From Dactylorhiza incarnata (lineage: Eukaryota > Streptophyta > Magnoliopsida > Asparagales > Orchidaceae): 64,000 bases of DNA. The stretch lies in NCBI GenBank assembly GCA_033032865.1, contig JAWHQI010000757.1, positions 186,001-250,000 on the forward strand, given 5' to 3'. Positions 10,804 through 48,133 of this stretch are shown in pieces. Both the position numbers and the translations under genes were made by a program. Numbering within the stretch: position 1 is the first letter of the stretch; each line of letters opens with the position of its first letter. The notes beneath the pieces were generated by a model. It was given only the letters and a program-made list of their open reading frames with translations. It searched no databases and was not told the origin of the DNA.

Positions 10804-10852
10804 GAAACACGCGACCTTCAAATCGCGGATTGTCGGTGAAACCCTCGATACA

Positions 10853-22040: not shown

Positions 22041-22092
22041 GAAACACGCGACCTTCATATCGTGGATTGTCGGTGAAATCCTCTTTGCCATA

Positions 22093-26453: not shown

Positions 26454-27600
26454 TGTTGAATCCAAAATTGCACCTCCACGATCTACTCGAGGGGATTGGG
26501 GGAAAAGGAGGCCGCGAGCAGCTGGTTACTTGGGTCGCGAGTGAAGAGGGGAGAAGAAGAGAGGGCCGCTAGCTTGCGGCGAGGCCAGACTTCGCCCGTC
26601 GCGGCAAAAGCCACTCCTGCGACGGGCTTTCCCTTTATTCAATAATCTGTCTTACAACTTGCCACTCTTAATACATGGAAATGAAATGAGTACAAGAGGT
26701 CGACAGATAAGAAAAACAAGTCGCCCAGGCTGTTTTGTTGAGGCCGCCCGGCCTGTTTGTTGAGGTCGCCCGGGCTTCTTTGCTGAGGCCGCCTGGCCAG
26801 TTTGGTGAGGTCGCCCGGGCTGCTTTGCTGAGGCCGCCCGGCCTGGCCGCTGTTAGGTGCGGTCTGGCTGTTTCTAGCCGCTAGTTTTGCCCCCAACCTG
26901 CCTGTCCTTTGTTCATGGTCGAGGGTCCTATTTATAGGCTCTGGGTCGATGTCGTCACCTCCGGTGAGCCGGTGACTGGATCCCTACCTGCGCGGTCTGA
27001 AGGAAGAGGCCGTCTGGCTTGGCGGCCCGACGGCGGAGGCCGCCCCTGTTGGGCGGCCTGACGGCGGAGGCCGCCCCTGCTTGGAGGCCTGACGGAGGAG
27101 GCCGCCCCCTGCCGGGCGGCCTGACGGAGGAGGCCGCCCCTGTTGGGCGGCCTGACGGCGGAGGCCGCCCCTGCTGGGCGTCCTGACGGAGGAGGCCGCC
27201 CCCTGCTGGGCGGCCTGACGGAGGAGGCCGCCCCTATTAGGCGGCCTGACGGCGGAGGCCGCCCCCTGCCGGGCGGCCTGACGGAGGAGGCCGCCCCCTG
27301 CCGGGCGGCCTGACAGAGGAGGCCGCCCCATGCCGGGCGGCCTGACGGAGGAGGCCGCCCCCTGCAGGGCGGCCTGACGGAGGAGGCCGCCCCCTGCCGG
27401 GCGGCCTGACGGAGGAGGCCGCCCCCTGCCGGGCGGCCTTACGGAGGAGGCTGCCCCCTGCTGGGCGGCCTGAAGGAGGCCACACGCCTTGGGCGATCTG
27501 AAGGAGGAGGTCGCCCCATCTTACCATTCTGGGCGCGTCATGTATAAAAACGTCGCGAAAAAGGCCTCTTCGGAGAGGATCGCCGATTTCTGGGTAAACA
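26454..27600 (-). repeat. F 3' LTR
   Basis: 1147 bp; on the minus strand begins TGTTTACCCAGAAATCGG and ends TTTTGGATTCAACA. TATA box at 26929-26936 (minus). Its U3 holds the GC-rich minisatellite at about 26990-27480. The GCCCGTCGC...GCGACGGGC hairpin is at about 26592-26625. Confidence 0.93.
26990..27480. repeat. U3 minisatellite of F (left LTR)
   Basis: About fifteen units of 29-32 bp of type CCTGACGGAGGAGGCCGCCC followed by CCTGCCGGGCGG. Each unit contains the dyad GGCCGCCC...GGGCGGCC. It lies 60-550 bp upstream of the TATA box. Open frames across it (Pro/Arg/Gly/Gln-rich) are by-products of the period. Confidence 0.88.
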
Positions 27601-27660
27601 TAATCCCCGCACTTTTTCAAGTTCCATAAAGAACTTCAAAAAAAGTAGAACTTACCCACG
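27601..27660 (-). promoter_or_regulatory. F purine tract and flank before 3' LTR
   Basis: On the minus strand GTGCGGGGATTA precedes the LTR start TGTTTACCC, the same tract that precedes the H (41626-41635) and E (60339-60348) 3' LTRs, where second-strand synthesis would start. Confidence 0.7.
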
Positions 27661-28678
27661 AAAATCGCGATCCTCTGCAAAACAGAACATAAAGCAGGTA
27701 TAAAACAATCTAATATGCGAGTACCTGAAGAGAACTCGCAAATACCTGCTAATCTCTGCAAAACAGAACATAAAGCAGGTATAAAACAATCTAATATGCG
27801 AGTACCTGAAGAGAACTCGCAAATACCTGCTAATCTCTGCAAAACAGGACATAAAGCAGGTATAAAATAATTTAATATGCGAGTACCTGAAGAGAACTCG
27901 CAAATACCTGCTAATCTCTGCAAAACAGAACATAAAGCAGGTATAAAACAACCTAATATGCGAGTACCTGAAGAGAACTCGCAAATACCTGCTAATCTCT
28001 GCAAAGCAGAACATAAAGCAGGTATAAAACAATCTAATATGCGAGTACCTGAAGAGAACTCACAAATACCTGCTAATCTCTGCAAAACAGAACATAAAGC
28101 AGGTATAAAACAATCTAATGTGCGAGTACCTGAAGAGAACTCGCAAATACCTGCTAATCTCTGCAAAACAGAACATAAAGCAGGTATGAAATATAACATA
28201 ACGCGAGTACCTGAAGAGAACTCGCGAATACCTGCTAATCTCTGCAAAAGAGATCTCAAAGCAGGTATGAAATATAACATAACGCGAGTACTTGAAGAGA
28301 ACTCGCGGACACCTGCTAATCTCTGAAAAAGAGAACATAAAGCAGGCATAAAACATAGTGCGAGTACCTGAAGAGAACTCGCGAATACCTGCTAATATCT
28401 GCAAAACAGAATATAAAGCAGGTATAAAATAATCTAATACGCGAGTACCTGAAGAGAACCCGCGAATACCTGCTAATCTCTGCAAAACAGAACATAAAGC
28501 AGGTATGAAATATAACATAACACGAGTACCTGAAAAGAACTCGCGAACACCTGCTAATCTCTGCAGAAGAGAACTCGAAGCAGGGATATAACATAACGCG
28601 AGTACATGAAGAGAACTCGCGGACACCTGCTAATTTCTGTAAAAGAGAACTCAAAGCAGGCATAAAACATAGCGCGAG
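27661..28678. repeat. F 82-bp tandem array, left part
   Basis: About 12-13 units of GCGAGTACCTGAAGAGAACT-CGC...TACCTGCT...AGCAGGTA. Each unit has two dyads: CGCGAGT/ACTCGCG (or TGCGAGT/ACTCGCA) and TACCTGCT/AGCAGGTA. The array is cut by H at 28679 and continues at 42472. It occupies the place of the aORFs in complete elements. Confidence 0.93.
28674..28678. repeat. Target-site duplication of H, left copy (GCGAG)
   Basis: Identical to 42472-42476. It lies within the CGCGAGT arm of a satellite unit. Confidence 0.93.
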
Positions 28679-29514
28679 TGTTTGCCCGGAAAACCGCTTC
28701 TTGGGTTGGACCATTAGCAGACCGCTCGAACTCCTGGGTCAGGCTGCTGGGTCCCGGGATCAGCGGTTCCCAGTTCAAGAAGGGCCAGGCCGGGCGGCCT
28801 GGTGTCATTTCCGGATCGCCCCCAAAGGGAGAAGATCGTCAAGAGCTAAGGCAAAAAGTTCATCCGCTGTCTCAGCTAGAAGGCCGCGCGGGTTGTCCCA
28901 TAGAAACTCGAGGTTCCAGCCCCGAAGAACAGGCCGGGGCTCCAGATCAAAGGCTATCCGAGTTACCTTGTGAAAAACGGCTAAGTCATGACCAGAAGGC
29001 AGACCGCGGCCTCAATCTCCAGGCCGCTCGGTCTGCATCATTGACTTAGTCCCGGTATCCTCAGCCTCAAGTCAGACGGGTAGGGAAGGCAGGCCGTCAG
29101 GTCGCGCGGCCTCTTTCTTTTTTCTTCTTTATGCATCCCGTCACCGCCTGCCCGTTTCTCCTGTACCCGGGCAGGAGGTTATTTTATCCCTGCCCATTCG
29201 GGCAGGCCCCCAAGCCTATAAATAGGGGGCGGCACTGTTCACAAGGGGCGCACACTCGAATCGAAGAGCTCGCTTGTCGGAGCTCCGGTCTCGAGTTTCT
29301 GGTCTCGCGAACTGTTTGACCGGCCGGCTTCTGCTTTCCTGCACTTGTAACCGCTACTTTTCAATCAAAGGAAAGCCCGTCGCAAGAGTGGCATTTGCCG
29401 CGGCGGGCGAAGTCCGGCCTCGACCGCTGCTAGCGGTCTAAATTCTCTAACCAAATAGTAACCGATAATCCGCAGCCCTCGATTTTCTTCGTGAGCGCAC
29501 TTTTGAATCGAACA
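28679..29514 (+). repeat. H 5' LTR
   Basis: 836 bp, TGTTTGCCCGG to GAATCGAACA. TATAAATA at 29217-29224. Hairpin GCCCGTCGC...GCGGCGGGC at 29375-29408 keeps pairing through a G-T wobble. Confidence 0.96.
29217..29224 (+). promoter_or_regulatory. H 5' LTR TATA box
   Basis: TATAAATA, 38 bp downstream of the TGCCC...GGGCA dyad and followed by GGGGGCGGCACTGTTC as in the other LTRs. Confidence 0.75.
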
Positions 29515-29565
29515 GAAACACGCGACCTTCAGATCGCGGACTATCAGCGAAATCTTTGGTTCAGA
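29515..29565 (+). other. H leader
   Basis: 51 nt beginning GAAACACGCGACCTTCAGAT right after the proven LTR end. There is no TGG. It contains the small dyad CGCGA...TCGCG. Its complement resembles the 3' anticodon arm, variable loop and T arm of a tRNA (see findings). Confidence 0.7.
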
Positions 29566-32500
29566 ATGTCAGACCGCCAGTTCCCTCCAAGAGACCGGTC
29601 CGATCATAGCGATGACTCCCTGTGGGAGGCTCTGGAGCAAACTAAGAGAGAAGCCGACTAGGCTCAGAAAGCAACTGATCAGCGTCTGGACGCGATCAGT
29701 CAGGCTCTAGCTCTGCTAACCAAGCGGTTAGCCCCCCAACAGGCCGCGGTTAACCCGGCCATGACCCCTGTTCTACCTCCTCCACCTCCATACCCATTTG
29801 CGCAGGTCGCTCACTCCCAACCGCCACCAGAAGGTTCTGCGGATCGGCAGAATTTCTACCAAGAGGCCGCGCGCTGTATGCCGGCTCGAGTCCTTGACTT
29901 CCAGGGGGCGGCTTCTCAGGCCGCTCGCTTTTCCTATCCGCCTGAGGTCGCCGCCTACCAGTCCTACCCGGCCGGAGCACCTGCCCGCTCCTATCAGGCG
30001 GCCTGTCCGCAAATGACCGCAGCAGAGATCCCCTACCACCCTGCTTTTTCTCTATACGAGGATGCCGAGGAGAGTTCTCCCTTCACGGATGAGATCCGGG
30101 GAGAGCCGGCTCCGAATAACTTTCGAGAACCACGCTTATCAACATATGGTGGGGAGTCCGATCCGGCATTTCATCTCCAAGCGTTTGAATCGGCTGTTGC
30201 TCTGAGGACCATCACCGATGCAACTAAGTGTAAGCTCTTGGTGACGTCCTTCGATGGACAAGCCAGAGAATGGTTCTATGGATTGCATCCTCGATCCATT
30301 AGATGTTTTGCAGAACTGCGTAGAGAATTTCTGCTTCGATTCTCTACCTCGAAAAAGAGGAAGAACGGTCCGGCAGCCCTATTTGAGATACGGCAGCAGG
30401 AAAACGAAACGTGGGCCCGCTTCGTTGACTGTTTCCAAAGGGAGATAATGGAGGTGCAAAACGTCGATCCAGAGTTATATAGGGTCGCTCTGATGCATGG
30501 CCTTAGGGAGGGGCCGCTGAAATTTGAAGCTCAAATCAGGGAGCCAAAAACATACTAGGAGATGATTAGTCTGGCTAACAAATTTATCAGGGGAGAAAAG
30601 ACTAATCCTGGTTATGTTGCCAAATTGCTCAGCAATAACGATCAGTTTAATCCCGCATCAACTCATCAGCAACGTTACAATCATCCATCTCGGCCTGATT
30701 TCGAACCCCGGGCTCAGAGGGGGAGGAATCTTAAGCCTAAACAACCATTCCTCGGCCATCAACGGTTTCAAGATCAGAAACCGCCGTTGGCCATCGCACC
30801 CACTCAACCCATGGGAGCTCCGCAAATAATGCCTGTATATCTGCCGCAGTACATCGCACAACCATCCCCAACTATCTCATCCATCCGATATGATGAATCT
30901 CAGGAGTCGTTCACCCCTCTCAACGTCACCATGAACGAGGTCGTGCAGATTCTCCAAAAGAGGCCTGACTTCAAGAGGCCTCCTCCCTTGAAATCAGAAG
31001 TTCGCAACCGGAACCCTAACTTTTATTGTGAATATCATAAAGAGGAAGGGCATCAGACTGAGGATTGCCGGGCCCTCCGGTGGTTGATAGAGAAGCTCCT
31101 GAAAGAAGGGAAGCTCCGAGGGTTGATTCGGCAAGAAACCCTGGTTGAGCCGCGAACCGAGAAGAAGAAGGAAGTGGTCGAAGTGACCTGGGAGTGTGCT
31201 GATGTGGAAGAGGCAGGTTGCTATGGGGATATACATCCCACAACCGAGTGTATAGAGGTGAATGACGTTGGCCCTCTTGGCAACGTCTATTGCATTCATG
31301 GTGGGGCAGGAGTAGAATCTTCTCGGAAATCTAGCATCGGGAGAGTTACGAAGCAAGAAGTGGCAGTCGCCTCCACTTCTACTCCAGAAAGGGCGGTCGC
31401 TACCTTCGGCCAAGAAGATCTTTCCCCAAATGCAAATCCTTTTGATGATGCAGTGGTGATAAAGGCGGTTATTGAAAACTACACCGTGCACAAAATTCTG
31501 ATTGATACCGGCAGCTCAGTTAATCTCATTTTCCGTGAAACATTCGAAGCCCTTAAAACTGGAAAGTCTTTACTCTCCACGGAAGGGCCCCTCTATGGCT
31601 TCTCGGGAGAGAAGAAGGAAGTGGAGGGGTGCGTAAAGCTTTTGGTATCGCTGGGGGGTATAACAAAGCTGATAAACTTCGTGGTGGTGGAAGCCCCAAG
31701 CAGCTACTGTGCAATTTTCGGAAGGCCAATTCTGAACGCTTACAGAGCGGTAGTATCTACTTTCCATTTGGCCTTGAAGTTCGCCGCTGAGGGGCGTCAA
31801 TATCGGATCCGGAGTGATCCAAGGGTTGCTCGCGAATGCTATGTAAAGACAGTTAATGTGATCACCGAGGCACCACTTCACAAGGCTCAGAATGACATCT
31901 ACGAGGTGTCCAAGCTCCCTGAGGAAATCAAAGAAAGCACAGAGCGGAAAGGAGTTTACCTGGAACCTGCCCAGGAGATCCAAGAAGTCCCCATTGCTGA
32001 AGGGGAAGAGAAGAAGCTGATCATCAACGCCGAGCTGTCGTATGAGGAAAAAGCTCAACTAACCTCCTGCCTGTTGGAGAACTTGGACATCTTCGCCTGG
32101 TCAGCGGAGGACATGCCTGGGGTAGATCCAGACGTAGCATGCCATCACCTCAACGTCTCTCCTGAATTCAAGCCGATCCAACAAAAGAAGAGGGAGGTGG
32201 CAACAAAGCTGGCATTGCCCATCAGAGAGGAGGTTTCCAAGCTCCTAAAAGCGGGTTTTATTTCTGAAATTCAATATCCAACGTGGATGTCAAACATTGT
32301 AATGGTTCCAAAATCTGGTGGGAAGTGGCGCATGTGCGTGGACTTCACAAAGCTCAATAAAGCGTGCCCCAAAGATTGCTATCCCTTGCCCCGGATAGAT
32401 GTTTTAGTAGATTCCGCGGTAGGATATAATTTCATGAGCTTTCTAGATGCATTTTCTGGTTATCACCAGATTAAGATGCATAAACCTGATATCCCGCATA

Positions 32501-35185
32501 CATCCTTCATTACCAATGATGGATGTTATTGTTATCTTGTCATGCCCTTCGGGCTCAAAAATGCGGGGGGCGACATATCAGAGGATGATGGACACAGTAT
32601 TCAAAAAACAGAAAGGGAGAAATCTTGAAGTATATGTAGACGATCTTCTTCTAGAAAGTAAAACTTTTTCAATCCATCTGAAAGACCTCGTAGAGACGTT
32701 CGCTACTCTGCGGAGGTTCAAATTAAAACTAAATCCTTTGAAATGTGTGTTTGGGGCCAACAAAGGAAAATTTCTGGGACACCTTCTCACTCCTAATGGC
32801 CTCGCGCCAAACCCAGATAAAGTAAAGGTCATCCTAGACATGACCCCTCCTCGCAATCCGAAGGAAGTGCAGCAACTTGGGGGGAGGTTGGCAGGATTGA
32901 GCCGATTCATTTCCAAGTCAGGGGATAAAAGCGCTCCATTTTTCAAAACACTTAGGGGAGGATCTAAGTTCGAATGGAGTGAAGAGTGCGATAATGCTTT
33001 CGAACAGTTGAAAAAGCAGTTAACCTCAACCCCTCTTCTTCAAAGCCCTCGTGAAGGGGAAACACTATTCTTATACTTGGGAGTGGGCCCAGATGCGATA
33101 AGCTCTGTCCTGGTGCGGGAAGAAAAAAAGAAGCAGTTTCCTATATATTATGTCAGCCACATCCTCAAAGATGCGGAAACTAGATATTCAATCTTGGAGA
33201 AATTAGCCTTGGCTTTGGTCATGTCATCACGAAGGCTCCGCCCTTATTTTCAGGCTCATCCCATTCAGGTGGTCTCGGACCATCCACTAAAGAGCATCTT
33301 GGAAAAGCCGGATCATTCAGGAAGGTTGGCCAAATGGGCAATCGAGCTAAGCAAGTTCGAAATATTATACATTCCCAGAACGGCAATAAAGGCACAAGTA
33401 TTGGCAGATTTCTTGGTAGACACGATGGAGTCTAATCCAGAACAAGTAGTGCAATCTCCCTTGGCTTGGATCATTTATGTGGATGGGGCTTCTGGCAGAA
33501 ACTCCGTGGGAGCTGGAGTGGTTCTGATCAGTCCAAATGGCATCAGGCTGGAGCAGGCTATCAAATTCTTCTTTTTAGTTACAAATAACCAGGCCGAATA
33601 CGAAGCATTCTTGGCCGGCTTGAGACTCGCGAAGGAGCTTGGGATAGAACACGTTCATGTGAAAACTGATTCTCTTGTAATGGCTTCGCAGGTTCTAGGG
33701 AATTATGAAACAAGAGAACCGATATTGAGAAAGTATCTATTTTTAGCTAAGAAAGAAATTGGGAGATTCAAATCCTTCATTATCGAACACATTCCGAGAA
33801 CACAGAATGAAGAGGCAGACAAATTGTCAAAGTTTGGTCTTCCATCAGGAGGGGTGACCTCAGAACTCTTTCGTCCGGCAATAGATGAGACAGAGGAAGA
33901 GGAGCTCATGCAGATCGATCAGCATCCTTCCTGGAAAGACCCCTATGAATTGTTTCTGTCAAAAGGAGAGTTTCATTCATCAATCAGGGACAGAAATAGA
34001 TTCAAAAGAAAGGCAGCCTACTACTACTTGATGGCAGGAGTCCTGTATAGGAAAACTCTGATTTCTCCCTCAGCGCGATGTGTCTCAGAAGAAGAAATTC
34101 CGATCATACTTCAGGAAATTCATTCAGGAGAGTGTGGTAGTCATTCAGGAGCGAAGACTTTGGAGAAAAGGATCTTGCGGCAGGGATATTTCTGGCCGAC
34201 CATGAGGAAAGATGCTGAAGCATTTGCCAGGCGATGTGTCCAGTGCCAAAAGTTCGCTCCTCTTCAACATTTGCCTGCTCAGTCGCTCAGGTCGATAACC
34301 GCGCCGTGGCCCTTTGCAGTATGGGGAATGGATCTTATGGGACCCTTTCCGATGGCCAGCGGTCAACGCCGTTTCATCCTTGTAATGATCGACTATTTCA
34401 GTAAGTGGATTGAGGCAAAAGCGCTGGCGAAAACAACAACTCAAATTGTCAAAAACTTCATCTGGGGGGAAATAATCTGCCGGCATGGAATTCCGTTAGC
34501 AATTGTTACCGATAACGGTCCACAGTTCAACAATTCCGAGATGAAAAGCTTCTGCGATCAGGCGGGAATTGATCTGCGATTTTCCTCAGTACATCATCCC
34601 AGGACCAATGGTCAGGTGGAAGCAGCGAACAGGCAAATCCGGCAGCTCTTGATGAAAAGGGTCTTAAATCAAAAAGGGAATTGGGCGGACCAGCTCCCTT
34701 CCATCCTTTGGACTCTTCGTACTACGCCATCTTCAGCTACAGGGGAGACGCCGTTCAAACTATCTCATGGCTCAGAGGTCGTTGTTCCCGTAGAATTTGA
34801 AGTGGTCACTCCAAAGGTTATGTATGCAAAAGAGGGAGGAGAATCATGGATGGATGAAAATGATGAGGCTATGAGGTATAGTCTGGATCTGATCGAGGAG
34901 CTTCAAGACGAGGCAACTATCAGACAGGAGGAAGTTAAAAGGAGGATGGCAAAATATTTTGACAAGAATGTCAGAGTAAAGCAGTTCGCAAGCGGTGATT
35001 TGGTATTAAAGAAGGTAGATGCTGCAGCCAGGTCTGGTAATGTTGGAAAGCTGGATCCTAATTGGGCAGGACCTTTTATCATCAAAGAAGTATTAAAGAA
35101 CGGGGCCTACCGTCTCCACACCAGTGAAGGGGAAGACATCCCGCGTACTTGGAGCGGTGACGATCTTAAACGATTCTATCCTTGA
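29566..35185 (+). pseudogene. gag-pol: H gag-pol polyprotein, two stops and one frameshift
   Basis: Same architecture as A: gag with N-terminal helix, Pro-rich stretch, gag core, zinc knuckle (CEYHKEEGHQTEDC), protease IDTGSS, RT with YVDD, RNase H plus archaeal-like RNase H, integrase with D,D,E core and a LKRFYP end. Lesions: TAG at 29659-29661, TAG at 30556-30558 (both replace Gln CAG/CAA of sister copies), and one extra G in the run at 32565-32570 just before YQRMMDTVF in RT. The rest is open, so decay is very slight and fits the low LTR divergence. Confidence 0.95.
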
Positions 35186-37116
35186 ATTATCTCTTTTATT
35201 CTCTACATCTCTTTTGGTATTAAATGAAAAGCCCTATACTGACACCTCTTCTTGTCTGATGGTTCTCTACATTGTGAATGTAAATATACATATCTCACTC
35301 CCCAAACCTCTGAGATATCGCCGAATTCTGCTCGAACCCCCTCGGATTGTAGTCGTAGCGTAAAACCCACCAAGACCATGTGATGCGGGGAGTTTTCGCA
35401 CACATGTAGTGGTAGCTTGCCAATTCCGCTGCGGAGGTCTTCAGAATTTTGGATCCCGGCCGATATCTGACACACCCCTGCATCAAGGGAGGTCTAGGTG
35501 ATTGTCAGCTCTATCATGCCCCGAAGGGATATAGTTACATCTTTGATGATCTTTCTGAGGAAAGCAATGTTCGCCGCCGAGGCCCACCTGCCCAACTGAT
35601 CATCATAGTCTGTGACCATCGAATACTCTTAGGTACTCTCGAAACGGTGCCTAGTTGGGCCCACAACTGAGTTGATCTCTCTGAGGAAAGCAATGTTCGC
35701 CGCCGAGGCCCACCTGCCCAATTGATCAACTCGGCTTGTAACCCTAGGCAAGAGAGCGGATGAGTCATTTACAGCTCTTATGACCACTTGAGGAAAGCAA
35801 TGTTCGCCGCCAAGGCCCACCTGCCCACTTGGTCATTTGAGTCTGTACATACCTTTTTTATTCTTTCTCTACAGGGAGGCATTTGCCTCTTATGGTTTCT
35901 TGTATAAGAACAATTCGAGGAAGATTTGGTTAAAACAGGTGCAGGTGTTCGTCTACCCTAATAAAGGGTTATGATATTAAGACCGTGCGGTCTGAACATC
36001 CAAACCGAACGGTCTGATTGGATATAAGTTGGGATATTTCCTGGCAATTATATAATGACCCGAGTGGTTATCCAACTGGGCGACCTTATCAATTTTTTAA
36101 TTGGGTATCTCCGGAACCGATCATCTATTACCCGGGTGGCATTCAAGCCGGGCGGGTCCATTCATCTTTTATAAGTTGATATTTCGGGAACTAATATTGC
36201 TCGGATCTCATTCTGGCCGGACGGTTTTATCTATCTATCCATCCTTTAATAAGTTGGATGTTTTTTAGATTTAGTCATATGATTATCCGGATTGTGTTCT
36301 AGCCGGGCGAATCTGTCTGTCTTTAAACTAAGTTGGATATCTCCAAAGCTGATTATCTGATTGTCCGGGTTGCATTCAAACCGGGCGGGATCATCCATCC
36401 TTTATAAAGTTGAATATTTCTGGAGCTAATTATATGATCGCTCGGGTTACATTTTGACTGAATCGGATCTATCTATCTCTCCATTCTATCAAGTTGTATT
36501 TCTGGATCTGGCTATATGATCCGGGTTGAATTTTAAACCGGCCGGGCACTATCTATTCCTGAATGAATAGTCGAAATTGGATATTTCTGGATCTGAATAT
36601 ATGGTCGCTCGGATTGTGCTCTAACCGATCAGGTTAAGCTATTTCTTAGCGAAAATTATCTCTAGACACAATGGATTACTCGGCAGGACTGAATTCAAAC
36701 CGCGTGAAAGTTGTTCATTATTTATAGCAGCAAGTATAAAGTATCTTCAAATGAAAAGAAGCCGCGCGGTCCGAATTTTAGTCGCATGAATCTATCTGTT
36801 ATGGTCTATACCGATTAGAAATCGAATATCCTGAGATCCAAATAAATAATCGTGCGGGTTGGACAAAGGATCGTCGAAGACAATCAATCATCACTTATGC
36901 TCGGACCAGGATGTCCGCGCGGTTAGAACGAAAAGAGCAAAAGAAAAGAAAAAGGGAAAAGACAAGGTATCAATCACAAGTAAGTAGTAACAGAAGGACG
37001 GCCAGACAGGTAAAAATTTCTATTCATTTCTTCAAAATATGTTAAAACAAAATATTGACCGCCCGGCTAACAAAAAGAAACCGGCGGTTACAAAAGTTAA
37101 AATCAAAACGAAAGCA
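35186..37116 (+). other. H 3' region: cassettes and degenerate ~80-bp repeat
   Basis: Conserved post-pol block at about 35280-35540. Hairpin cassettes at 35545-35604, 35671-35730 and 35780-35836. About 36020-36650 holds roughly eight diverged copies of a repeat of about 80 bp (motifs TAAGTTGGATATTTC, TGATCG, CCGGGTTGCATTC, AACCGGGCGG). From 36650 to 37116 is AT-rich sequence and the aORF1 3' flank. No sense gene is present. Confidence 0.75.
35545..35836 (+). other. H hairpin cassette cluster
   Basis: Three units share a loop containing TGAGGAAAGCAATGTTCGCC then AGGCCCACCTGCCCA but have different arms: GATGATC/GATCATC (35545-35604), GTTGATC/GATCAAC (35671-35730), ATGACCA/TGGTCAT (35780-35836). 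Each pair of arms is perfectly complementary. Confidence 0.75.
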
Positions 37117-38988
37117 CTAGTCTGCCGACTTTCTCTTCTTCTTGACAGGAGAATTTGGGTACACACCATCGATGTCAACCTCCGGCGAATAACCTTCGCT
37201 TAATGAGGAGGAGCCGGATGAACTGCTGTCACTAGACCGCCCGGTCTTGCTTGCAGAACCGGTGGTCCCGGAGGACAAGTCATCCTCATCATCCTCATCA
37301 GCATCACCGGCTTCATTATCCGCGTCGACCTCGTCGGCGGCTTCACCACTTCCATCGCCCCCTTGATGGAGTACGATCTCCCTGCCCGCATCGGCCTCCG
37401 CCTCCTCGCCCACCTTAGTCTTTCCTTTTTGCCTTCGGTTGATTTCGTCAAGTTGAGTCTTCAAGGTGGGGAAGAGGTCGGAGAAGGTGGTACCCTCGAA
37501 CCCTTCGGTCAGACCGCCCCGGTCTTCCATAAGACCCAAGGCTTTGTTGATCCCCTGGGCCACATGAGGCAGCACCTCATCTTGGAAAGCCGGGTTGGTC
37601 ATCTCATATTGCTTCTGCAAGAAGGGGAAAAATGAATTAGGCCGCTCGGGCTAAACAAAAGGAACCGCGTTGTCTTGTGAGAAACTCACCGCCACGACTT
37701 CTTGAAGCCGCGCGTTCTCCTCTCGAAGCCGCATATTCTCCGCGGCTTGCTCCTCGTACTTCTTCTCCAGGTGTTTCTGAACAGAAACTAGCCGCTTATA
37801 CGACAGGGCCATGAAGTGATTGGACGCGAATCCCCATGCGCCGGCCTGTGCCGCTAGCCGGGGGAGCTCTTCTTCGGGAGTATTCCTCAGCTTCTTTAGG
37901 GTCTTTCGACCATACAAGGCGGCCGCGGCGGCTAGGGCGTGGCGGTCAATCTTTTCACTCCCCCACGGAGGGAGCGCGGTGGATACCCGAATGCGGCTTC
38001 CATCCCTATGCCAGAGGACGGTCGGGTTGCCCTGCAGGTCGGGCGGGTTCCCACAAGAATGAAGGAGCTCGTAGTCATCAGGAGAAGCCGGGCCTTCTTC
38101 CTCTGACGATAGCGATCTGTTTCGCTTCTGCCTCCTCTCCCTTTGGGTTAAAACCGGCACGGCCGGAGTGACCGGCTTGTTCGCAGGGACGACGTGGGCA
38201 GCTGTAAAGTGAAAACAAAAGTGTAAATAACGATGTCCGCGCGGTTACATACAGGCGGTCTAAAAGAACTTACTATGCTCAGGGAGGATATCCTCCAGCT
38301 CCGAGAACAGCGGGATGTAGTGGTTGATATCCAACCGCTCGTTCTCAAGGAACGTGAAAGTGTCCGCCTCGATCTTTCCGACCTGGGGGATCTGGAAAAC
38401 TTCTTCCCCTCGGACTTGCGGGTTGGTCTGCAACAGTCCGAAGTTGCCTTCGAGCATTACAAACCGCTCCGACCAGTCGGAGACTTTGTTTGCCAAGTTG
38501 ACGATCTTCAACCCATGGCAGCCGAAGTAGAGGTGTCCCCTATAAGTTGAAGTCCCCGAGTCGGAGACCGCCCGCACCGAGAAGAACTTTCTGAATAGGT
38601 CGAGGGAGAACCTGATCCGCTCGAACCGCAGGTACGAGATGAAACTGTATATGGAGGCGATGGAGTTCGGTGGAAGTTGACCGGGTACGACCCCGTAATG
38701 GTCGAAGATGGCTATGACTTCAAATGGCAGTGGGAACTTGAAGCCGTATTCGAAGTGGTCGACCGGGATAGCTAACTGGTGCGGATTGGAAGAGTTAATC
38801 CGCTCGTCGCGCAAAGGAAGCCGCGCGAGCAGACTACTCCCTGCCATGTGTTTTGCGATGAAATCGTCCAGTTCGCTCTGAGTAAGGCGGCATTCCGGAT
38901 GGTCCCCCGAATGGAATGCTAAGGCCGCATCAGCTCGGACGGCTTTAACTTTAACAGGTCGCTGCGACTTGTTCTTGGATCGCGCCAT
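37117..38988 (-). CDS. H aORF1, three-exon antisense gene
   Basis: Inferred exons 38988-38274, 38201-37690 and 37614-37117 (715+512+498 nt = 575 codons including stop). Introns of 72 and 75 bp have GTAAGT/GTGAGT donors and TTTACAG/TTGCAG acceptors, and phases match. Exon 1 has a basic start (MARSKNKSQRPVKVKA) and the block IPVDHFEYGFKFPLPFEVIA with downstream LPPNS and F..YLRFERIRFSLDLFRKFFS, resembling the plant 'putative gypsy type transposon' domain. Exon 2 has a coiled coil (ENMRLREENARLQEVV). Exon 3 ends in an acidic, Ser-rich tail and KKKRKSAD, a possible nuclear signal. TATAAGTA at 39023-39030 precedes it. No lesion was found. The role is unknown. Confidence 0.85.
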
Positions 38989-39022
38989 CCGGAAATCGTG
39001 AGAATGACTTCGAAGAATTCCC

Positions 39023-39030
39023 TACTTATA
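39023..39030 (-). promoter_or_regulatory. TATA box of H aORF1
   Basis: TATAAGTA on the minus strand, 35-42 bp upstream of the ATG. The same box at the same distance is in C (20176-20183) and E (57752-57759). Confidence 0.65.
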
Positions 39031-39336
39031 GATTTCTATGATCTGTGAATAGTAAAATCATATCGCGACTATACATTCTAACCGCGCGGTCAATGACCTA
39101 AGTGGTTAGATTCACCAGAAAAATAAAAGAAGCAAAGGCATCCAGGAAAACAAAAGCAAGCATACATCACAGATCGAGCGACCTGAAGTCGGTTCGAATA
39201 AAGCATGAGATCTAAAACAGAACACAAAGTATAGCGGTTAAATAAGAGACCGCACGAGTTATCCAGAATACAAGACAAAGAACATTGTTCAAACCAATAA
39301 GCCACGCTTATAGTACAAATTGTTCTCAAAGGCCGG
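39031..39336. other. H spacer between aORF2 and aORF1
   Basis: Holds the 3' flank of aORF2 and the sequence upstream of the aORF1 promoter. No frame resembling other copies was seen. Includes CCGCGCGGT-type dyads. Confidence 0.55.
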
Positions 39337-41447
39337 TCACGGCTGACGGCGTTCTGGGGAGACATCCTCTCTGTGAAGTCGCGCGACCTGGTCACTGGTT
39401 GTGTTCAGGAGAGAGTAAATCTGGCTTGTATGATAATGAAGGTGGTTGATTGTGCTATGAAGCCGCCCGGCATCCCTTTCGACCCGCGTAGCGGCAATCA
39501 TACGGGGGGTTGCGGCGGCCTCGTCAATCATTGGATCAGCCGCCCGGACTGGGGGAGGATTCGAGCCCGCTCCAATAGTCGGGCGGCTAACAGCTACCAC
39601 CCCATCGTTCATATTTCGCCGACCAGCGGCGACTTCTCTGGTTAACCGCAGGAATTTATCCTGGTAATATTTCGAGTCGCTCTCAAATTTAGCAGAGGCT
39701 CTCTTCTCCTTCTCCAGTTGAGCGGTTAGAGCAGCCCGCGTAGCCACCACTGCTGCCCGCGCGGCCTCAAGCTGAGTCTCCAGGACTTTCTCCTTTTCTG
39801 AGCCGGATTTCCTGTTGATCTCCGACTGCGCCTTCAGCGCCTCTTCAGCCTTCTTCCTCGCAATCTGCTCAGCCTCCAGAGCGGTCCGAGTGGCGGCCTC
39901 CCGGTCTTCTACCTCCTTCAAGCGGGCTCTCAGGTTGACCAGATCTTCCTCGAGATGGTCAAACAGCTGCAGTCCTTCCGGCAAAGTCGTTGCACCGGTT
40001 GGAATCAGTGGAACTAACGGAGGCGGGCTGGCCTCAAGGTCGCCCGGCTTCGTAACCTGATCCACGCTATCTGAAAGAAGCCGCTCGGTTATGAAAAGTA
40101 AGAGCATGCAAAGCCATATATATATATACAAATGAACATAAATACAAGAGCAGTGCCTGGACGGACAGGCCACTTAGACCGTTCCGGATTCATCCTCTGA
40201 CATTGCTCACGCCAGAGTCTTTCCGTACTTTGTCTAACAGAAGGGAACCGGGCCGCTAAAGAAAGGAGGATCGGCGGCGGGTTCACTAATTTATTATGGC
40301 GAGGCCGCGGAATGGAGAAGCGGACAGCTTTATAGTCCGTGGAGCCCTTACCTGCCACAAGAGGATCAGGCCGCGACGGCTTGTTCAAAGTTCGTTCCGC
40401 CCCCTCCTTCTTCACCATCATTATTTCTTCCCCGGTCATCGCTGGGGGAACTTCCTCCCGCGCTTTCAGCATTTCTTCAAGCTCCCTCGTTCTCTCTTCG
40501 ACCTCCAAGGCAGTCCGGGCGGCAGCTTCTCGTTCTTCGGCCTCCGTCCGAGCGGTCTCTTCAGGCCGGACTGTATTATCAGTGGCAGAGGGATTTTGTC
40601 TGGAAACAATCGGGCTGTCAAGAAGCTGATCTCGCTTCACCAGCTCATCCATACCCCTGAAGATCCCATTAAAAGATAAGCTGCTCGACGAATCCGGAGG
40701 CAGTTCGCCCGGTTTCGTATCAGGGGTAGCCGGTGATTCATTTGACTTGTTGGGTGGAGGAGTCGCAAGGCCTAGCTCCTCCTTTAGTCGCGAATTGGTC
40801 TGGAGGAGGGATTCGGTCGGTTTCTTAAGAGCCGCCCTTTCCTTAGCGGCTAACCTCTTGACCTTCTTCGTTATCCGCTCGGTCACGGACCCGGTCTTCT
40901 TCCTTTTCCTCTCCTTCTTGCTCGGAGTTGGGCTAACTTCTTTGGAAGGGCTGGGGTAGTCGTCCACGGACAAAGGGGTATTCAGATCGCCCGCCCTTGG
41001 GCAGTTGACCGCCTCTTCCTCCAAGTTTCTAACTAGCAGATGGGGGTTCCCAGAAGGAGTAATCTCCATGCCAAACGAGTCGTTTTTGCCGGTCTTCTTC
41101 GAAGGGCTACCGGTATCAGCTTTTTCAGGAGGAGCGGTCTCCTCTTTGTTCAGCGGGTTGGCGACCTGTTGACCAGGGTCTTCTAAAGGAATCAGCGGGT
41201 CACCAAGAAGAGGCCTCGAACTGTTCGCCACGGGCTCTGCAGGAGTCTTGGGAGTTGTTAAGTCCACGACCGGTTTGGGGCTATCCGCTGCGGCCTTCTC
41301 GGCCCGCTTTCTCTTTTTCCGGTCCTTCCGGTCTTGCTTTTCCTTCTCCTTATTCGATTTCTTCGACGATTCGCGCCTCTTATCTTCCACCCTCTTCTGA
41401 TCTCCGTTGGGATCCACGCGGTCTAACACAGCGTCCAGGAAGTCCAT
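39337..41447 (-). CDS. H aORF2, two-exon antisense coiled-coil gene
   Basis: Inferred exons 41447-40352 and 40070-39337 (1096+734 nt = 610 codons with stop). The 281-bp intron has donor GGTAAGG and acceptor TTTCAG; exon 1 ends in phase 1 and exon 2 needs two bases, so they fit. G has the same phase and exactly 281 bp. Exon 1 is Lys/Glu-rich (KEKEKQDRKDRKKRKRAEK) with Pro/Ser-rich linkers and a DELVKRDQLLDSP motif. Exon 2 is a long coiled coil (LEEDLVNLRARLKEVEDREA...) ending RVERDAGRLHSTINHLHYHT and VARLHREDV. No enzymatic motif was recognised. Part of the intron is also conserved as protein-like sequence (NPPP...ERLWREQ), so alternative splicing is possible. Confidence 0.8.
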
Positions 41448-41542
41448 TGCGGAAGAATTGCCGGTCTTAAAAATTCTAACCGCAACTGGCGAGTAATACC
41501 CCGTGATTTCAGGAAAAACTCCGCAGAATGAATTCTCTGGCT

Positions 41543-41550
41543 CTCTTATA
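41543..41550 (-). promoter_or_regulatory. TATA box of H aORF2
   Basis: TATAAGAG on the minus strand about 100 bp upstream of the aORF2 ATG. E has TATAAAT at 60258-60264 and G has TATATAAG at 61242-61249 in equivalent positions. Confidence 0.55.
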
Positions 41551-41625
41551 GAATTTAAGGCAGGTCGGATGCGGTCTCCCGGTCAAAGCTAATATTTTCG
41601 AAATTCTCTTGAGATTTGAAAATAT

Positions 41626-41635
41626 GCGGGGATTA
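41626..41635 (+). promoter_or_regulatory. H polypurine tract
   Basis: GCGGGGATTA directly before the 3' LTR. The same ten bases flank the 3' LTRs of E and F. Confidence 0.75.
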
Positions 41636-42471
41636 TGTTTGCCCGGAAAACCGCTTCTCGGGTTGGACCATTAGCAGACCGCTCGAACTCCTGGGTCAGG
41701 CCGCTGGGTCCCGGGATCAGCGGTTCCCAGTTCAAGAAGGGCCAGGCCGGGCGGCCTGGTGTCATTTCCGGATCGCCCCCAAAGGGAGAAGATCGTCAAG
41801 AGCTAAGGCAAAAAGTTCATCCGCAGTCTCAGCTAGAAGGCCGCGCGGGTTGTCCCATAGAAACTCGAGGTTCCAGCCCCGAAGAACAGGTCGGGGCTCC
41901 AGATCAAAGGCTATCCGAGTTACCTTGTGAAAAACGGCTAAGTCATGACCAGAAGGCAGACCGCGGCCTCAATCTCCAGGCCGCTCGGTCTGCATCATTG
42001 ACTTAGTCCCGGTATCCTCAGCCTCAAGTCAGGCGGGTAGGGAAGGCAGGCCGTCAGGTCGCGCGGCCTCTTTCTTTTTTCTTCTTTATGCATCCCGTCA
42101 CCGCCTGCCCGTTTCTCCTGTACCCGGGCAGGAGGTAATTTTATCCCTGCCCATTCGGGCAGGCCCCCAAGCCTATAAATAGGGGGCGGCACTGTTCACA
42201 AGGGGCGCACACTCGAATCGAAGAGCTCGCTTGTCGGAGCTCCGGTCTCGAGTTTCTGGTCTCGCGAACTGTTTGACCGGCCGGCTTCTGCTTTCCTGCA
42301 CTTGTAACCGCTACTTTTCAATCAAAGGAAAGCCCGTCGCAAGAGTGGCATTTGCCGCGGCGGGCGAAGTCCGGCCTCGACCGCTGCTAGCAGTCTAAAT
42401 TCTCTAACCAAATAGTAACCGATAATCCGCAGCCCTCGATTTTCTTCGTGAGCGCACTTTTGAATCGAACA
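41636..42471 (+). repeat. H 3' LTR
   Basis: 836 bp, the same ends as the 5' LTR. TATA box at 42174-42181. Differences from the 5' LTR noticed by eye: seven single-base changes, no indels. Confidence 0.96.
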
Positions 42472-42476
42472 GCGAG
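42472..42476. repeat. Target-site duplication of H, right copy (GCGAG)
   Basis: Matches 28674-28678; the satellite unit resumes here. Confidence 0.93.
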
Positions 42477-45400
42477 TACCTGAAGAGAACTCGCGAATAC
42501 CTGCTAATCTCTGCAAAACAGAATATAAAGCAGGTATAAAATAATCTAATATGCGAGTACCTGAAGAGAAAACGCAAATACCTGCTAATCTCTGCAAAAC
42601 AGAACATAAAGCAGGTATAAAACAATCTAATATGCAAGTACCTGAAGAGAACTCGCAAATACCTGCTAATCTCTGCAAAACAGGACATAAAGCAGGTATA
42701 AAATAATCTATAACGCGAGTACCTTTAGAGAACTCGCGAACACCTGCTAATCTCTGCAAAAAGAGAACATAAAGCAGGCATAAAATAATCTATAACGCGA
42801 GTACCTGGAGAGAACTCGCGAACACCTGCTAATCTCTGCAAAAACAGAACTTAAAGCAGGTATGAAATATAACATAACGCGAGTACCTGAAGAGAACTCG
42901 CGAATACCTGCTAATCTCTGCAAAAGAGAACTCAAAGCAGGTATGAAATATAACATAACGCGAGTACCTGAAGAGAACTCGCGGACACCTGCTAATCTCT
43001 GAAAAAGAGAACATAAAGCAGGCATAAAACATAGCGCGAGTACCTGAAGAGAACTCGTGAATACCTGCTAATCTCTGCAAAACAGAATATAAAGCAGGTA
43101 TAAAATAATCTAATACGCGCTACCTGAAGAGAACCCGCGAATACCTGCTAATCTCTGCAAAACAGAACATTAAGCAGGTATGAAATATAACATAACGCGA
43201 GTACCTGAAGAGAACTCGCGAACACCTGCTAATCTCTGCAAAAGAGAACTCAAAGCAGGGATATAACATAACGCGAGTACCTGAAAAGAACTCGCGGACA
43301 CCTGCTAATTTCTGTAAAAGAGAACTCAAAGCAGGCATAAAACATAGCGCGAGTACCTGAAGAGAACTCGTGAATACCTGCTAATCTCTGCAAAACAGAA
43401 TATAAAGCAGGTATAAAATAATCTAATACACGCTACCTGAAGAGAACCCGCGAATACCTGCTAATCTCTGCAAAACAGAACATTAAGCAGGTATGAAATA
43501 TAACATAACGCGAGTACCTGAAGAGAACTCGCGAACACCTGCTATTCTCTGCAAAAGAGAACTCAAAGCAGGGATATAACATAACGCGAGTACCTGAAAA
43601 GAACTCGCGGACACCTGCTAATTTCTGTAAAAGAGAACTCAAAGCAGGCATAAAACATAGCGCGAGTACCTGAAGAGAACTCGTGAATACCTGCTAATCT
43701 CTGCAAAACAGAATATAAAGCAGGTATAAAATAATCTAATACGCGAGTACTTGAAGAGAACCCTCGAATACCTGCTAATCTCTATAAAACAGAACATAAA
43801 GCAGGTATGAAATATAACATAACGCGAGTACCTGAAGAGAACTCGCGAACACCTGCTAATCTCTGCAAAAGAGAACTCAAAGCAGGTATAAAACAATCTA
43901 ATATGCGAGTACCTGAAGAGAACTCGCAAATACCTGCTAATCTCTGCAAAACAGGACATAAAGTAGGTATAAAATAATCTAATATGCGAGTACCTGAAGA
44001 GAACTCGCAAATACCTGTTAGTCTCTGCAAAACAGAACATAAAGCAGGTATAAAATAATCTAATATGCGAGTACCTGAAGAGAACTCGCAAATACCTGCT
44101 AATCTCTGCAAAACAGAACATAAAGCAGGTATAAAACAATCTAATATGCGAGTACCTGAAGAGAAACTCGCAAATACCTGCTAATCTCTGCAAAACAGGA
44201 CATAAAGCAGGTATAAAATAATTTAATATGCGAGTACCTGAAGAGAACTCGCAAATACCTGCTAATCTCTGCAAAACAGAACATAAAGCAGGTATAAAAC
44301 AATCTAATATGCGAGTACCTGAAAAGAATCCGCGAATACCTGCTAATCTATGCAAAACAGAACATAAAGCAGGTATGAAATATAACATAACGCGAGTACC
44401 TGAAGAGAACTCGCGAACACCTGCTAATCTCTGCAAAAGAGAACTCAAAGCAGGTAGGGAATATAACATAACGCGAGTACCTGAAGAGAACTCGCGGACA
44501 CCTGCTAATTTCTGTAAAAGAGAACTCAAAGCAGGTATAAAATAATCTATAACGCGAGTACCTGAAGAGAACTCGCGAATACCTGCTAATCTCTGCAAAA
44601 AGAGAATTCAAGGCAGGTATAAGACATAGCGCGAGTACCTGAAGAGAACTCGCGAACACCTGCAAATTTCTGTAAAAGTGAAATCAAAGCAGGTAAAAAA
44701 CATAACGCGAGTACCTGAGGAGAACTCGCGAACACCTGCTAATCTCTACAAAAGAGAACTCAAAGCAGGTACGAAATATAACGCGAGTACCTGAAGAGAA
44801 CTCGCAAACACCTGCTAATCTCTGCAAAAGAGAACTCAAAGCAGGTATAAAATAATCTATAACGCGAGTACCTGAAGAGAACTTGCGAATACCTGCTAAT
44901 CTCTGCAAAAAGAGTACATAAAGCAGGTATAAAACAAACTACGATGCGAGTACCTGAAGAGAACTCGCGAACACCTGTCAATCTCTGCAAAAAAGAGAAC
45001 ATAAAACAGGTATAAAACAATATATAACGCGAGTACCTGAAGAGAACTCGCAAACACCTGCTAATCTCTACAAAAGAGAACTCAAAGCAGGTACGAAATA
45101 TAACGCGAGTACCTGAAGAGAACTCGCAAACACCTGCTAATCTCTGCAAAAGAGAACTCAAAGCAGGTATAAAATAATCTATAACGCGAGTACCTGAAGA
45201 GAACTCGCGAATACCTGCTAATCTCTGCAAAAAGAGTACATAAAGCAGGTATAAAACAAACTACGATGCGAGTACCTGAAGAGAACTCGCGAACACCTGT
45301 AAATCTCTGCAAAAAAGAGAACATAAAACAGGTATAAAACAATATATAACGCGAGTACCTGAAGAGAACTCGCAAACACCTGCTAATCTCTCCAAAGAGA

Positions 45401-47106
45401 ACTCAAAGCAGGTACGAAATATAACGCGAGTACCTGAAGAGAACTCGCAAACACCTGCTAATCTCTGCAAAAGAGAACTCAAAGCAGGTATAAAATAATC
45501 TATAACGCGAGTACCTGAAGAGAACTCGCGAATACCTGCTAATCTCTGCAAAAAGAGTACATAAAGCAGGTATAAAACAAACTACAATGCGAGTACCTAA
45601 AGAGAACTCGCGAACACTTGTCAATCTCTGCAAAAAGAGAACAAAAAACAGGTATAAAACAATCTATAACGCGAGTACCTGAAGAGAACTCGCAAACACC
45701 TGCTAATCTCTACAAAAGAGAACTCAAAGCAGGTACGAAATATAACGCGAGTACCTGAAGAGAACTCGCAAACACCTGCTAATCTCTGCAAAAGAGAACT
45801 CAAAGCAGGTATAAAATAATCTATAACGCGAGTACCTGAAGAGAACTCGCGAATACCTGCTAATCTCTGCAAAAAAGAGTACATAAAGCAGGTATAAAAC
45901 AAACTACGATGCGAGTACCTGAAGAGAACTCGCGAACACCTGTCAATCTCTGCAAAAAAGAGAACATAAAACAGGTATAAAACAATATATAACGCGAGTA
46001 CCTGAAGAGAACTCGCAAACACCTGCTAATCTCTACAAAAGAGAACTCAAAGCAGGTACGAAATATAACGCGAGTACCTGAAGAGAACTCGCAAACACCT
46101 GCTAATCTCTGCAAAAGAGAACTCAAAGCAGGTATAAAATAATCTATAACGCGAGTACCTGAAGAGAACTCGCGAATACCTGCTAATCTCTGCAAAAAGA
46201 GTACATAAAGCAGGTATAAAACAAACTACAATGCGAGTACCTAAAGAGAACTCGCGAACACCTGTCAATCTCTGCAAAAAGAGAACATAAAACAGGTATA
46301 AAACAATCTATAACGCGAGTACCTGAAGAGAACTCGCAAACACCTGCTAATCTCTACAAAAGAGAACTCAAAGCAGGTACGAAATATAACGCGAGTACCT
46401 GAAGAGAACTCGCAAACACCTGCTAATCTCTGCAAAAGAGAACTCAAAGCAGGTATAAAATAATCTATAACGCGAGTACCTGAAGAGAACTCGCGAATAC
46501 CTGCTAATCTCTGCAAAAAGAGTACATAAAGCAGGTATAAAACAAACTACAATGCGAGTACCTAAAGAGAACTCGCGAACACCTGTCAATCTCTGCAAAA
46601 AGAGAACATAAAACAGGTATAAAACAATCTATAACGCGAGTACCTGAAGAGAACTCGCAAACACCTGCTAATCTCTACAAAAGAGAACTCAAAGCAGGTA
46701 CGAAATATAACGCGAGTACCTGAAGAGAACTCGCAAACACCTGCTAATCTCTGCAAAGAGAACTCAAAGCAGGTATAAAATAATCTATAACGCGAGTACC
46801 TGAAGAGAACTCGCGAATACCTGCTAATCTCTGCAAAAAGAGTACATAAAGCAGGTATAAAACAAACTACAATGCGAGTACCTAAAGAGAACTCGCGAAC
46901 ACCCGTCAATCTCTGCAAAAAAAGAACATAAAACAGGTATAAAACAATCTATAACGCGAGTACCTGAAGACAACTCGCGAATACCTGCTAACCTCTGCAA
47001 AAAGAGAACATAAAGCAGGTATAAAATAATCTATAACGCGAGTACCTGAAGAGAACTCGCGAATACCTGCTAATCTCTGCAAAAAGAGAACATAAAGCAG
47101 GTATAA
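42472..47106. repeat. F 82-bp tandem array, right part
   Basis: About 55-60 further units, some shortened to about 70 bp. From 43021 two copies of a 313-bp higher-order block are seen (43021-43333, 43334-43646) and a third starts at 43647. From about 44700 to 46960 a 321-bp four-unit block repeats seven times (GTACGAAATATAACG markers at 44771, 45093, 45413, 45734, 46058, 46379, 46700). Long minus-strand frames rich in Leu/Phe/Ser come from unit lengths divisible by three and are not genes. Confidence 0.93.
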
Positions 47107-47733
47107 ATGAATTTATAACTGTTAGTCTTTGCTATTTTACTTACTTGTGGATATCCATATGCGATCTTCTGTTTTTAGCATTATTCCTTATAAAACTTCA
47201 AATCCTTTATGAAAAACCTCCAGGGAAAAGAAAAGATATCTCCAAAAGAATAATTGTCCAGTTATCATGAAATGTTGCCCTGACGGTTTATCATTTTAGT
47301 TCAAAAGTAGATCCTGATTGGCTCAGTGAAGGTGAATCGCGGGCTGAAACTGCCAGAGATTATATCTTCATAAGCTCTGATTGTCAAGAGGATTAATAAG
47401 TCCATTTCCCGACTATTAGAGTGAAAGCCTTGACTCGATTATCTCGAGTCGGTAACACTGCCTTGTTGCTTCCTGTAATAGCCCGCTTTCCAGCTTTGAA
47501 GCCAGATATATCCCACTTGGCTAGCCTATTATGCAGCCATTTTTCATAACCTGTTGTACTCTTTCAAACCGACCGTCTTGATAGATGAAACTGCCTGGTC
47601 TAAAAGTTTTTCAACTTTTAAATGACCAAGTGGGCCAATATTTGTACCTGTTAGATACTGCTTTCTCCAAATGATCAAGGATCATAAGAGAGATAATTTT
47701 CCTGTAAGGAAAAAGGAATGGCTACAGACTCAG
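47107..47733 (-). other. F 3' region next to the array
   Basis: Degenerate AT-rich sequence linking the array to the cassette cluster. No gene was seen. Short stretches resemble the region after the cassettes in C and E. Confidence 0.5.
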
Positions 47734-48133
47734 ATGACCAAGTGGGCAGGTGGGCCTAGGCGGCGAACATTGCTTTCCTCAAGTGGTCATAAGAGTTGTA
47801 GAAATAAAGAAAAAGGAAGTACAGACCCAGATGACCAAGTGGGCAGGTGGGCCTAGGCGGCGAACATTGCTTTCCTCAAGTGGTCATAAGGGCTGTAAAC
47901 GACTCAACTGCTCTCTTGCCTAGGGCTACAAGCCGAGTTGATCAATTGGGCAGGTGGGCCTAGGCGGCGAACATTGCTTTCCTCAGAGAGATCAACTCAG
48001 TTGTGGGTCCCGCTTAGGCATCGCTTGAGAGTACCTAGGAGTATTCGATGGTCACAGACTAAGATGATCAGTTGGGCAGGTGTGGTTATGCCGCGGAGGC
48101 TATACCGACATTGCTTTTCTCAGAAAGATCATC
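47734..48133 (-). other. F hairpin cassette cluster
   Basis: Four units: 47734-47790 and 47831-47887 (arms ATGACCA/TGGTCAT), 47937-47996 (GTTGATC/GATCAAC), 48063-48133 (GATGATC/GATCATC, long 71-bp variant with a changed loop). Order and types equal those of C and E, showing F was derived from the C/D/E side of the family. They are retained although gag-pol is lost. Confidence 0.75.

Follow-up and report, generated by a model that had tools for sequence, protein, structure and literature searches.

Behind the pol gene of LTR retrotransposons in an orchid genome lie tandem hairpin units that share a loop, while their arms differ from unit to unit and remain complementary, and the question raised by this arrangement is what the units do and whether they act as RNA or as DNA. 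In the initial annotation of the window, the whole stretch of 64,000 nucleotides from Dactylorhiza incarnata that was analysed here, the units were taken for cassettes forming a selected RNA or DNA structure, with packaging, export or the binding of aORF products as possible uses.

Hairpin units in a nest of LTR retrotransposons

Nested Ty3/gypsy elements lie in the window, and a Pfam search (10/22 ORFs scanned) finds gag, RT, RNase H and integrase together with an antisense PF04195 ORF. In element H, whose LTRs are 99.2% alike, the TRP28 ORF at 38260-38988 on the minus strand matches PF04195 with E=2.3e-9, and homologues also lie downstream of elements C and E, with none found in element F. 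A long region between pol and the 3' LTR with an antisense TRP28 (PF04195) ORF, the arrangement by which Retand elements are recognised, is thus present, and from this ORF and the domain content the elements would be typed as Retand-type LTR retrotransposons. Six relatives were found for the TRP28 protein of the window, all of them in Platanthera orchids, with identities of 59-61% in five and 47% in the sixth. Two elements are delimited as follows:

28679..42472, plus strand: element H, with LTRs at 28679-29515 and 41636-42472, gag-pol, the RNA domain, and antisense ORFs including TRP28/Transposase_28
26454..50284, minus strand: element F, interrupted by H, with LTRs at 49106-50284 and 26454-27600; boundaries approximate, from self-comparison

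An 81-bp repeat array of ~5.7 kb inside F is split by the insertion of H (27654-28679 and 42463-47119); 81 bp correspond to 27 codons, and on the minus strand the array is read through by two frames, of 237 and 319 codons.

Seventeen complete hairpin units and half a unit (in element A) lie in the window, the 17 including the first units (u1) of C, E and F, in which the apical part is longer and different. With up to 3 mismatches allowed, the window contains 15 copies of the loop TGAGGAAAGCAATGTTCGCC (0.01 expected by chance), and with up to 2 allowed, 14 copies of AGGCCCACCTGCCCA (0.14 expected); a chance origin of the loop matches is excluded. Loop matching and unit alignment across the window recovered the units where the initial annotation had placed them, as well as its arms GATGATC/GATCATC, GTTGATC/GATCAAC and ATGACCA/TGGTCAT and the single mismatch in the unit of C at 17033-17089. 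The loop that it had called nearly constant is so across most units, the exceptions being the longer, different apices of u1 in C, E and F, and its arm length of 7 bp proved too short, as folds of single units and the 17-unit alignment extend the stem further. The full stem consists of ACAR/YTGT, a single bulged pyrimidine in the 3' arm, CY/RG, a 2x2 mismatch in some units, and then the 7 bp. The units that follow the first are:

35660..35742, plus strand: u2 of H, from loop matching, single fold and unit alignment
35769..35848, plus strand: u3 of H, from loop matching, single fold and unit alignment
6925..7007, minus strand: u2 of B, from unit alignment
16913..17199, plus strand: u2, u3 and u4 of C (16913-16995, 17022-17101, 17120-17199), from unit alignment
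47722..48007, minus strand: u2, u3 and u4 of F (47925-48007, 47819-47898, 47722-47801), from unit alignment
54480..54767, plus strand: u2, u3 and u4 of E (54480-54562, 54590-54669, 54688-54767), from unit alignment

Eight units were folded singly (H1-H3, C1-C4 and E1), and seven of them have an outer stem with the bulged 3' pyrimidine, a stem of 7-8 bp, an inner part that is irregular, and GCC/GGC at the apex; in C3 the outer stem and apex are kept and the inner part is shifted. The outer stem co-varies as well (ACAG/CTGT versus ACAA/TTGT in u2). Exceptions are u1 of H, with ACAT instead of ACAG, an A.C at that place in C3 and F4, and broken outer pairs in E2 and E3. Over the alignment of all 17 units, 89.0% of cells are paired, against 30.5-39.6% in slid versions, and 23 cells are double-changed, against 11.1 in letter shuffles, with six of 25 pairs changing on both sides. 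That last count equals the letter-shuffle mean of 6.0. The window alone thus gives strong support to pairing and modest support to covariation, in line with the caveat in the initial annotation. The statement that only three arm types exist holds within the window; genome-wide, other families show more. The linkers before u4 or after the last hairpin (17100-17126, 35849-35876, 47700-47830, 54665-54690) are pyrimidine-rich and mostly end in ACAG, in which they resemble 3' splice sites; an ACAG that precedes a hairpin is its outer stem as well.

A predicted closed domain and its relatives

Conservation extends over ~260 nt upstream of u1, as seen in an alignment of 7 copies from 4 families, and RNAalifold on 14 representatives predicts one closed domain of ~330 nt, with the stem GAG..TCG/CGA..CTC and three branches, of which domains I and II lie upstream and arm III is u1. 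The first hairpin is therefore an arm of this domain rather than a free-standing cassette, as the units had been described, and u2-u4 repeat that arm, with two or three such copies behind the domain in the window's uncut arrays. The domains and, for H, their parts are listed here, with p values from the helix counts given below:

35312..35628, plus strand: RNA domain of H, from an nhmmer match with the consensus fold mapped; three branches
35321..35452, plus strand: domain I of H; inner hairpin at 35377-35406, with GGGGAG in the loop
35453..35530, plus strand: domain II of H; two helices with p of 0.0025 and 0.005, remaining helices not significant
35534..35617, plus strand: arm III, u1 of H; p=0.005 for the stem and p=0.0025 for the apical stem, no events in two inner helices
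7040..7356, minus strand: RNA domain of B, including u1 at 7051-7136, from nhmmer and unit alignment
16552..16881, plus strand: RNA domain of C, including u1 at 16776-16867, from nhmmer and unit alignment
48039..48367, minus strand: RNA domain of F, including u1 at 48053-48144, from nhmmer and unit alignment
54120..54448, plus strand: RNA domain of E, including u1 at 54343-54434, from nhmmer and unit alignment
1..270, minus strand: RNA domain of A, truncated within u1 by the edge of the window (half a unit); nhmmer match 12-270, model positions 1-261

Comparative evidence thus points to a large multi-stem structure, as a predicted fold, in the sense genomic RNA. The domain starts 120-153 nt after the end of pol in 42 of the 45 copies with upstream sequence. 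A place directly behind pol at so nearly fixed a distance, in the 42 copies with pol, would suit a 3' enhancer of translation or a stabiliser of the gag-pol message, yet this role is unlikely, given that the domain is kept in F, where both gag and pol are incomplete, that no U-rich internal loop facing a stem, of the ENE type, was seen by eye in the predicted fold, and that Rfam gave no match. The Rfam searches returned nothing at E<=5 in 35200-36100, at the gathering score in the whole window, or at E<=1 in 8 other loci, and covariance models of the hammerhead and other self-cleaving ribozymes had no match in the window or those 8 loci. A CCCCCTC/GGGGAG pseudoknot and a hammerhead-like CTGAGGA were each considered and dropped after inspection by eye. 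Between pol and the domain, a conserved ATACTGACAC and, behind it, pyrimidines (16450-16520, 35200-35290) are found in H, B, C, E and F and resemble a branch point.

The pattern GAAAGCAATGTN{8,38}CACCTGCCC, present in the window at 35556-35596, has 21,868 matches in the 3.27-Gb genome that contains the window, and its reversed control has none. Divergent families elsewhere in this genome have the domain too: a pattern built to exclude the families of the window gives 2,382 matches (control 0), and from the 100 matches listed for it 20 loci were picked for differing loops, 18 of which gave a usable domain. Two loci taken early diverge, with differences that include the outer stem GTTACAA/TTGTAAC, the 7-bp stem AATGATC/GATCATT, the inner AGGG/CCCT and the apex ACC/GGT. 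At one locus, L120 (G000:C57:80125-81023), four loop matches stand at a regular spacing of 125 nt, which suggests recent tandem amplification of the arm. All relatives used in the comparisons come from this one genome; scans of IMG/VR (0, 29 and 1 matches) and of GTDB genomes (11 matches) yielded no recognisable relative, the matches being read as chance after their contexts had been inspected for all 29 and for three of the 12 later ones (L098, L102 and L107).

Compensatory change and the strand under selection

Covariation was assessed in a first set of 43 sequences (22 H, 16 C and 5 X/Y) and a larger set of 61, both counted without identical domain sequences, copies with fewer than 300 model positions (L114 and the copy in A) and L110, which has no row. 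In the first set, folds derived from X/Y, H+C, H and C paired 81.8, 85.4, 86.1 and 89.7% of held-out cells, against 32-45% when slid, with 8, 7, 29 and 29 held-out pairs double-changed, against 2-6, 0-4, 4-11 and 4-10. A null simulated on the tree, with 300 simulations for each of three training sets, gave means of 11.5-12.2 and maxima of 19-22 double-changed pairs where 33, 32 and 32 were observed in the same set, and maxima of 80.3, 77.6 and 81.2% paired cells where 92.9, 92.8 and 83.4% were observed. At the larger size, the tip-based held-out counts exceed the null in part only: in one direction 84.6% of cells were paired (null maximum 81.0) and 17 pairs double-changed (maximum 18), and in the other 81.5% (maximum 81.8) and 7 (maximum 9).

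A per-pair test in the manner of R-scape (APC-corrected G-test with a tree null) placed none of 102 pairs at E<0.05 and five at E<1 in the 61 sequences, none of the 60 top-scoring column pairs of that set fell inside the structure, and no pair reached E<0.05 in the set of 43 either. Because a few deep splits dominate the tree and leave per-pair tests empty, weight is placed on aggregate, helix-level and branch-wise counts. For three structures, 18.9, 18.6 and 17.6 compensatory changes fell on the same branch, where 400 simulations gave means of 3.0, 2.7 and 2.7 and maxima of 11, 8 and 9. By helix, with p values uncorrected and bounded below at 0.0025, p is 0.0025-0.005 for five of 16, namely a helix of domain I, a pair of helices in domain II, and the stem and apex of u1; two lie near 0.05, one has 0.16 and eight are without a compensatory event. 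The domain I helix is the inner hairpin (p=0.0025), and two other helices of that domain have p of about 0.05.

On internal branches the consensus structure has 13.3 compensatory changes where 1.3 are expected and 23.6 breaks where 62.8 are expected (minimum 52 of 200 simulations), and a fold from C only gives 12.8 versus 1.4 and 33.0 versus 67.5. Terminal branches have more breaks than expected (131.9 versus a null of 90.4), and with all branches pooled there is no deficit of breaks (159 versus 160, 159 versus 151, and 155 versus 152). The constraint is thus confined to internal branches, and is read as selection while a lineage transposes followed by decay after insertion.

The coding end of pol served as a control, with a structure from C only, in 39 of the 45 copies, leaving out three without pol, the copy in A and two outside the distinct domain set. 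There, compensatory changes were 3.9 versus 0.9 (P=0.020; 3.0 versus 0.9 in an earlier run), breaks 38.3 versus 48.7 (P=0.025), and 85.4% of held-out cells were paired; the domain in the same 39 copies gave 13.6 versus 1.8, 19.0 versus 49.1, and 89.6%. Since the control pairs nearly as well, the raw pairing percentage is by itself weak evidence, and since it is mildly positive, part of such a signal reflects bias or weak structure in pol; compensatory changes and breaks set the domain apart from the control.

These counts bear on the reading in which the units are a functionless, hypervariable 3' tandem repeat whose complementarity comes from the common descent of a few arm types. Tandem arrays are described in about half of the Retand clusters in the main text of PMC11963269, often beside pol, the independent families are few and the per-pair tests negative, yet the held-out and simulation results argue against it, domains I and II are unrepeated, and the compensatory changes, breaks and A.C counts (below) on internal branches contradict it, so that it is scarcely tenable. 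Arms varying without complementarity, or no excess over phylogeny, would have told against the structure that the initial annotation proposed, and in aggregate neither was found; the check on related elements that it had called for yielded an aggregate and branch-wise excess, with per-pair significance not reached.

The strand can be told from the kinds of mismatch. Internal branches have 33.0 changes to G.U against a null of 34.7, and 10.8 to A.C against 27.6; in the 86 pairs common to the sense and antisense folds, the figures are 24.7 against 29.6 and 9.2 against 24.0. As an A.C in the sense strand is a G.U in the antisense strand, tolerance of G.U and purging of A.C point to sense RNA as the form that is kept. 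A.C is not depleted in the pol control (22.8 versus 20.7), and in the domain of the same copies it is (5.4 versus 20.2). Raw tip counts are 180 G.U and 179 A.C over all 61 sequences, and 92 and 67 in representatives.

The near equality of the former pair would favour DNA structure, with the units as dyads recognised by a DNA-binding protein, TRP28 for instance, from the element or the host; the inverted arms look dyad-like, and DNA binding is predicted for the TRP28 domain in the text of PMC11963269. DNA would, however, treat G.U and A.C alike, whereas internal branches tolerate the one and purge the other, also in the 86 pairs shared by both strands, and neither domain I (~130 nt) nor domain II (~78 nt) is a simple dyad; this already disfavoured explanation is very improbable. 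Of the alternatives left by the phrase "RNA or DNA structure", selection on sense-strand RNA is thus the one that stands, with DNA and antisense RNA disfavoured, and on this comparative evidence the hairpins very probably belong to a structured sense-strand RNA.

The domain also diverges well below the four-fold sites of the adjacent pol. Among 8 copies, uncorrected divergence at four-fold sites of the pol end is 0.31-0.41 between H and C and 0.64-0.81 between either and X/Y, with 0.12-0.15 and 0.31-0.38 for the domain.

A putative cis-acting signal of the genomic RNA

Element F, whose LTRs are 95.7% alike and which has GCCGT on both sides, shares its primer-site region with H and contains a remnant of gag, a few codons from the end of pol, the domain, four hairpins and the 81-bp array. 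The C-terminal 227 residues of pol and three antisense proteins of H had no match in the stretches of F searched, and the 5' part of F, compared with the window's DNA, matched, apart from F itself, only in LTR and leader. A junction of F has 426 matches in the genome at up to 2 mismatches (control 0). The domain is thus kept in non-autonomous copies: more than 300 of 330 model positions remain in 19 of 20 sampled copies, and in 22 of 23 with F, L074 and L092 added. Among these copies the domain diverges like its upstream flank (3.35% versus 3.41%); the family probably goes back to one founder event, and retention is therefore weak evidence for necessity. Nevertheless, F retains the domain and its hairpins although gag and pol are all but gone and no relative of the antisense genes was found in it, which suggests that the genomic RNA carries a signal acting in cis; a role of the domain in cis during mobilisation is likely, as far as element structure can tell.

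Packaging, export and aORF-product binding would each be compatible with the sequences. The reading preferred here, at a probability of roughly 0.4 for the whole, is that a selected sense RNA of ~330 nt marks the unspliced RNA in cis, export being the likeliest use. The hairpins would be part of a large RNA structure of the sense transcript directly after pol, with the third arm repeated downstream. The internal loops around GAGGAAAGCAATG and CACCTGCCC, conserved and asymmetric, would serve as protein-binding sites, repeated for multivalency, and, once bound, would mark full-length, unspliced RNA for a step peculiar to it. That step may most readily be nuclear export, as with the RTE, MTE, CTE and RRE in retroviruses and animal LTR elements; packaging comes next. 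Two considerations tentatively favour export, the analogy with animal LTR elements, in which RNAs of this kind occur, and the need of the element's RNA to exit the nucleus whole and without splicing. Several animal export RNAs sit between pol and the 3' LTR. On the opposing side, plants may lack a plain NXF1 orthologue.

Nearly as likely as export is a signal for packaging or dimerisation, in which Gag (nucleocapsid) would bind the repeated hairpins and select genomic RNA for particles; taken by itself it is possible but doubtful. Tandem hairpins are multivalent, and they are kept in F, an element with a mere remnant of gag and without pol that would depend on helper proteins. In LTR elements the known packaging signals usually sit close to the 5' end, which counts against packaging here, and only one of four loop stretches pairs with the leader and LTR of H beyond shuffles, inconsistently between elements. 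This is loop I, GCGGGGAGTTTTCGC (35385-35399), which pairs with the gag start of H (29608-29624) better than any of 200 shuffles; the pairing is weak in E (9/200 shuffles as good) and A (18/200) and absent at 22000-22300 (65/200), at 10740-11050 (156/200) and in F (98/200). The other three loop stretches, tried against the leader and LTR of H, did no better than 9 of 100 shuffles.

LTR retrotransposons make up a large share of many plant genomes. In the text of a 2025 review, direct studies of the nuclear exit of LTR-retrotransposon RNA are said not to have been conducted in plants (PMC12786077), and a conserved, covarying RNA of ~330 nt with repeated hairpins is a concrete candidate for a cis element of export or packaging. 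Structured RNAs that export unspliced RNA are described for animal LTR elements, namely the IAP RTE and MusD MTE of mouse and SERV-K1/MER11 (in accounts in PMC12786077 and PMC11379458), and they likewise lie in the full-length transcript; the present case differs in its plant element, its tandem copies of one arm and an export role proposed by analogy. Retrozymes with hammerhead ribozymes are, as outlined in PMC4918200, also structured RNAs inside plant retroelements, but they propagate via circular RNAs, and no hammerhead or other Rfam match was found here. The region between pol and the 3' LTR of Retand elements has been described (Vicient 2025, PMC11963269) with the same lineage type, antisense TRP28 ORF and pol-adjoining tandem repeats; in that main text the repeats are given just by place, size and number, and a search for the terms "hairpin", "stem" and "secondary structure" found none. 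No description of this RNA in print was found among mainly openly readable papers, taken without supplements.

The RRE, likewise a highly structured RNA, of ~350 nt (as given in PMC4488727), lies in env and is bound by Rev, while the domain here adjoins pol, its binding partner is putative and it has no Rfam match. As a further parallel, a nuclear element-encoded protein is reported in the text of PMC11963269 for Grande, a Retand element. By analogy, the domain and hairpins could be a response element bound in the nucleus by the antisense-encoded TRP28 of the same elements, an improbable arrangement. If so, elements of the F type would keep only the response element and use the TRP28 of full copies in trans.
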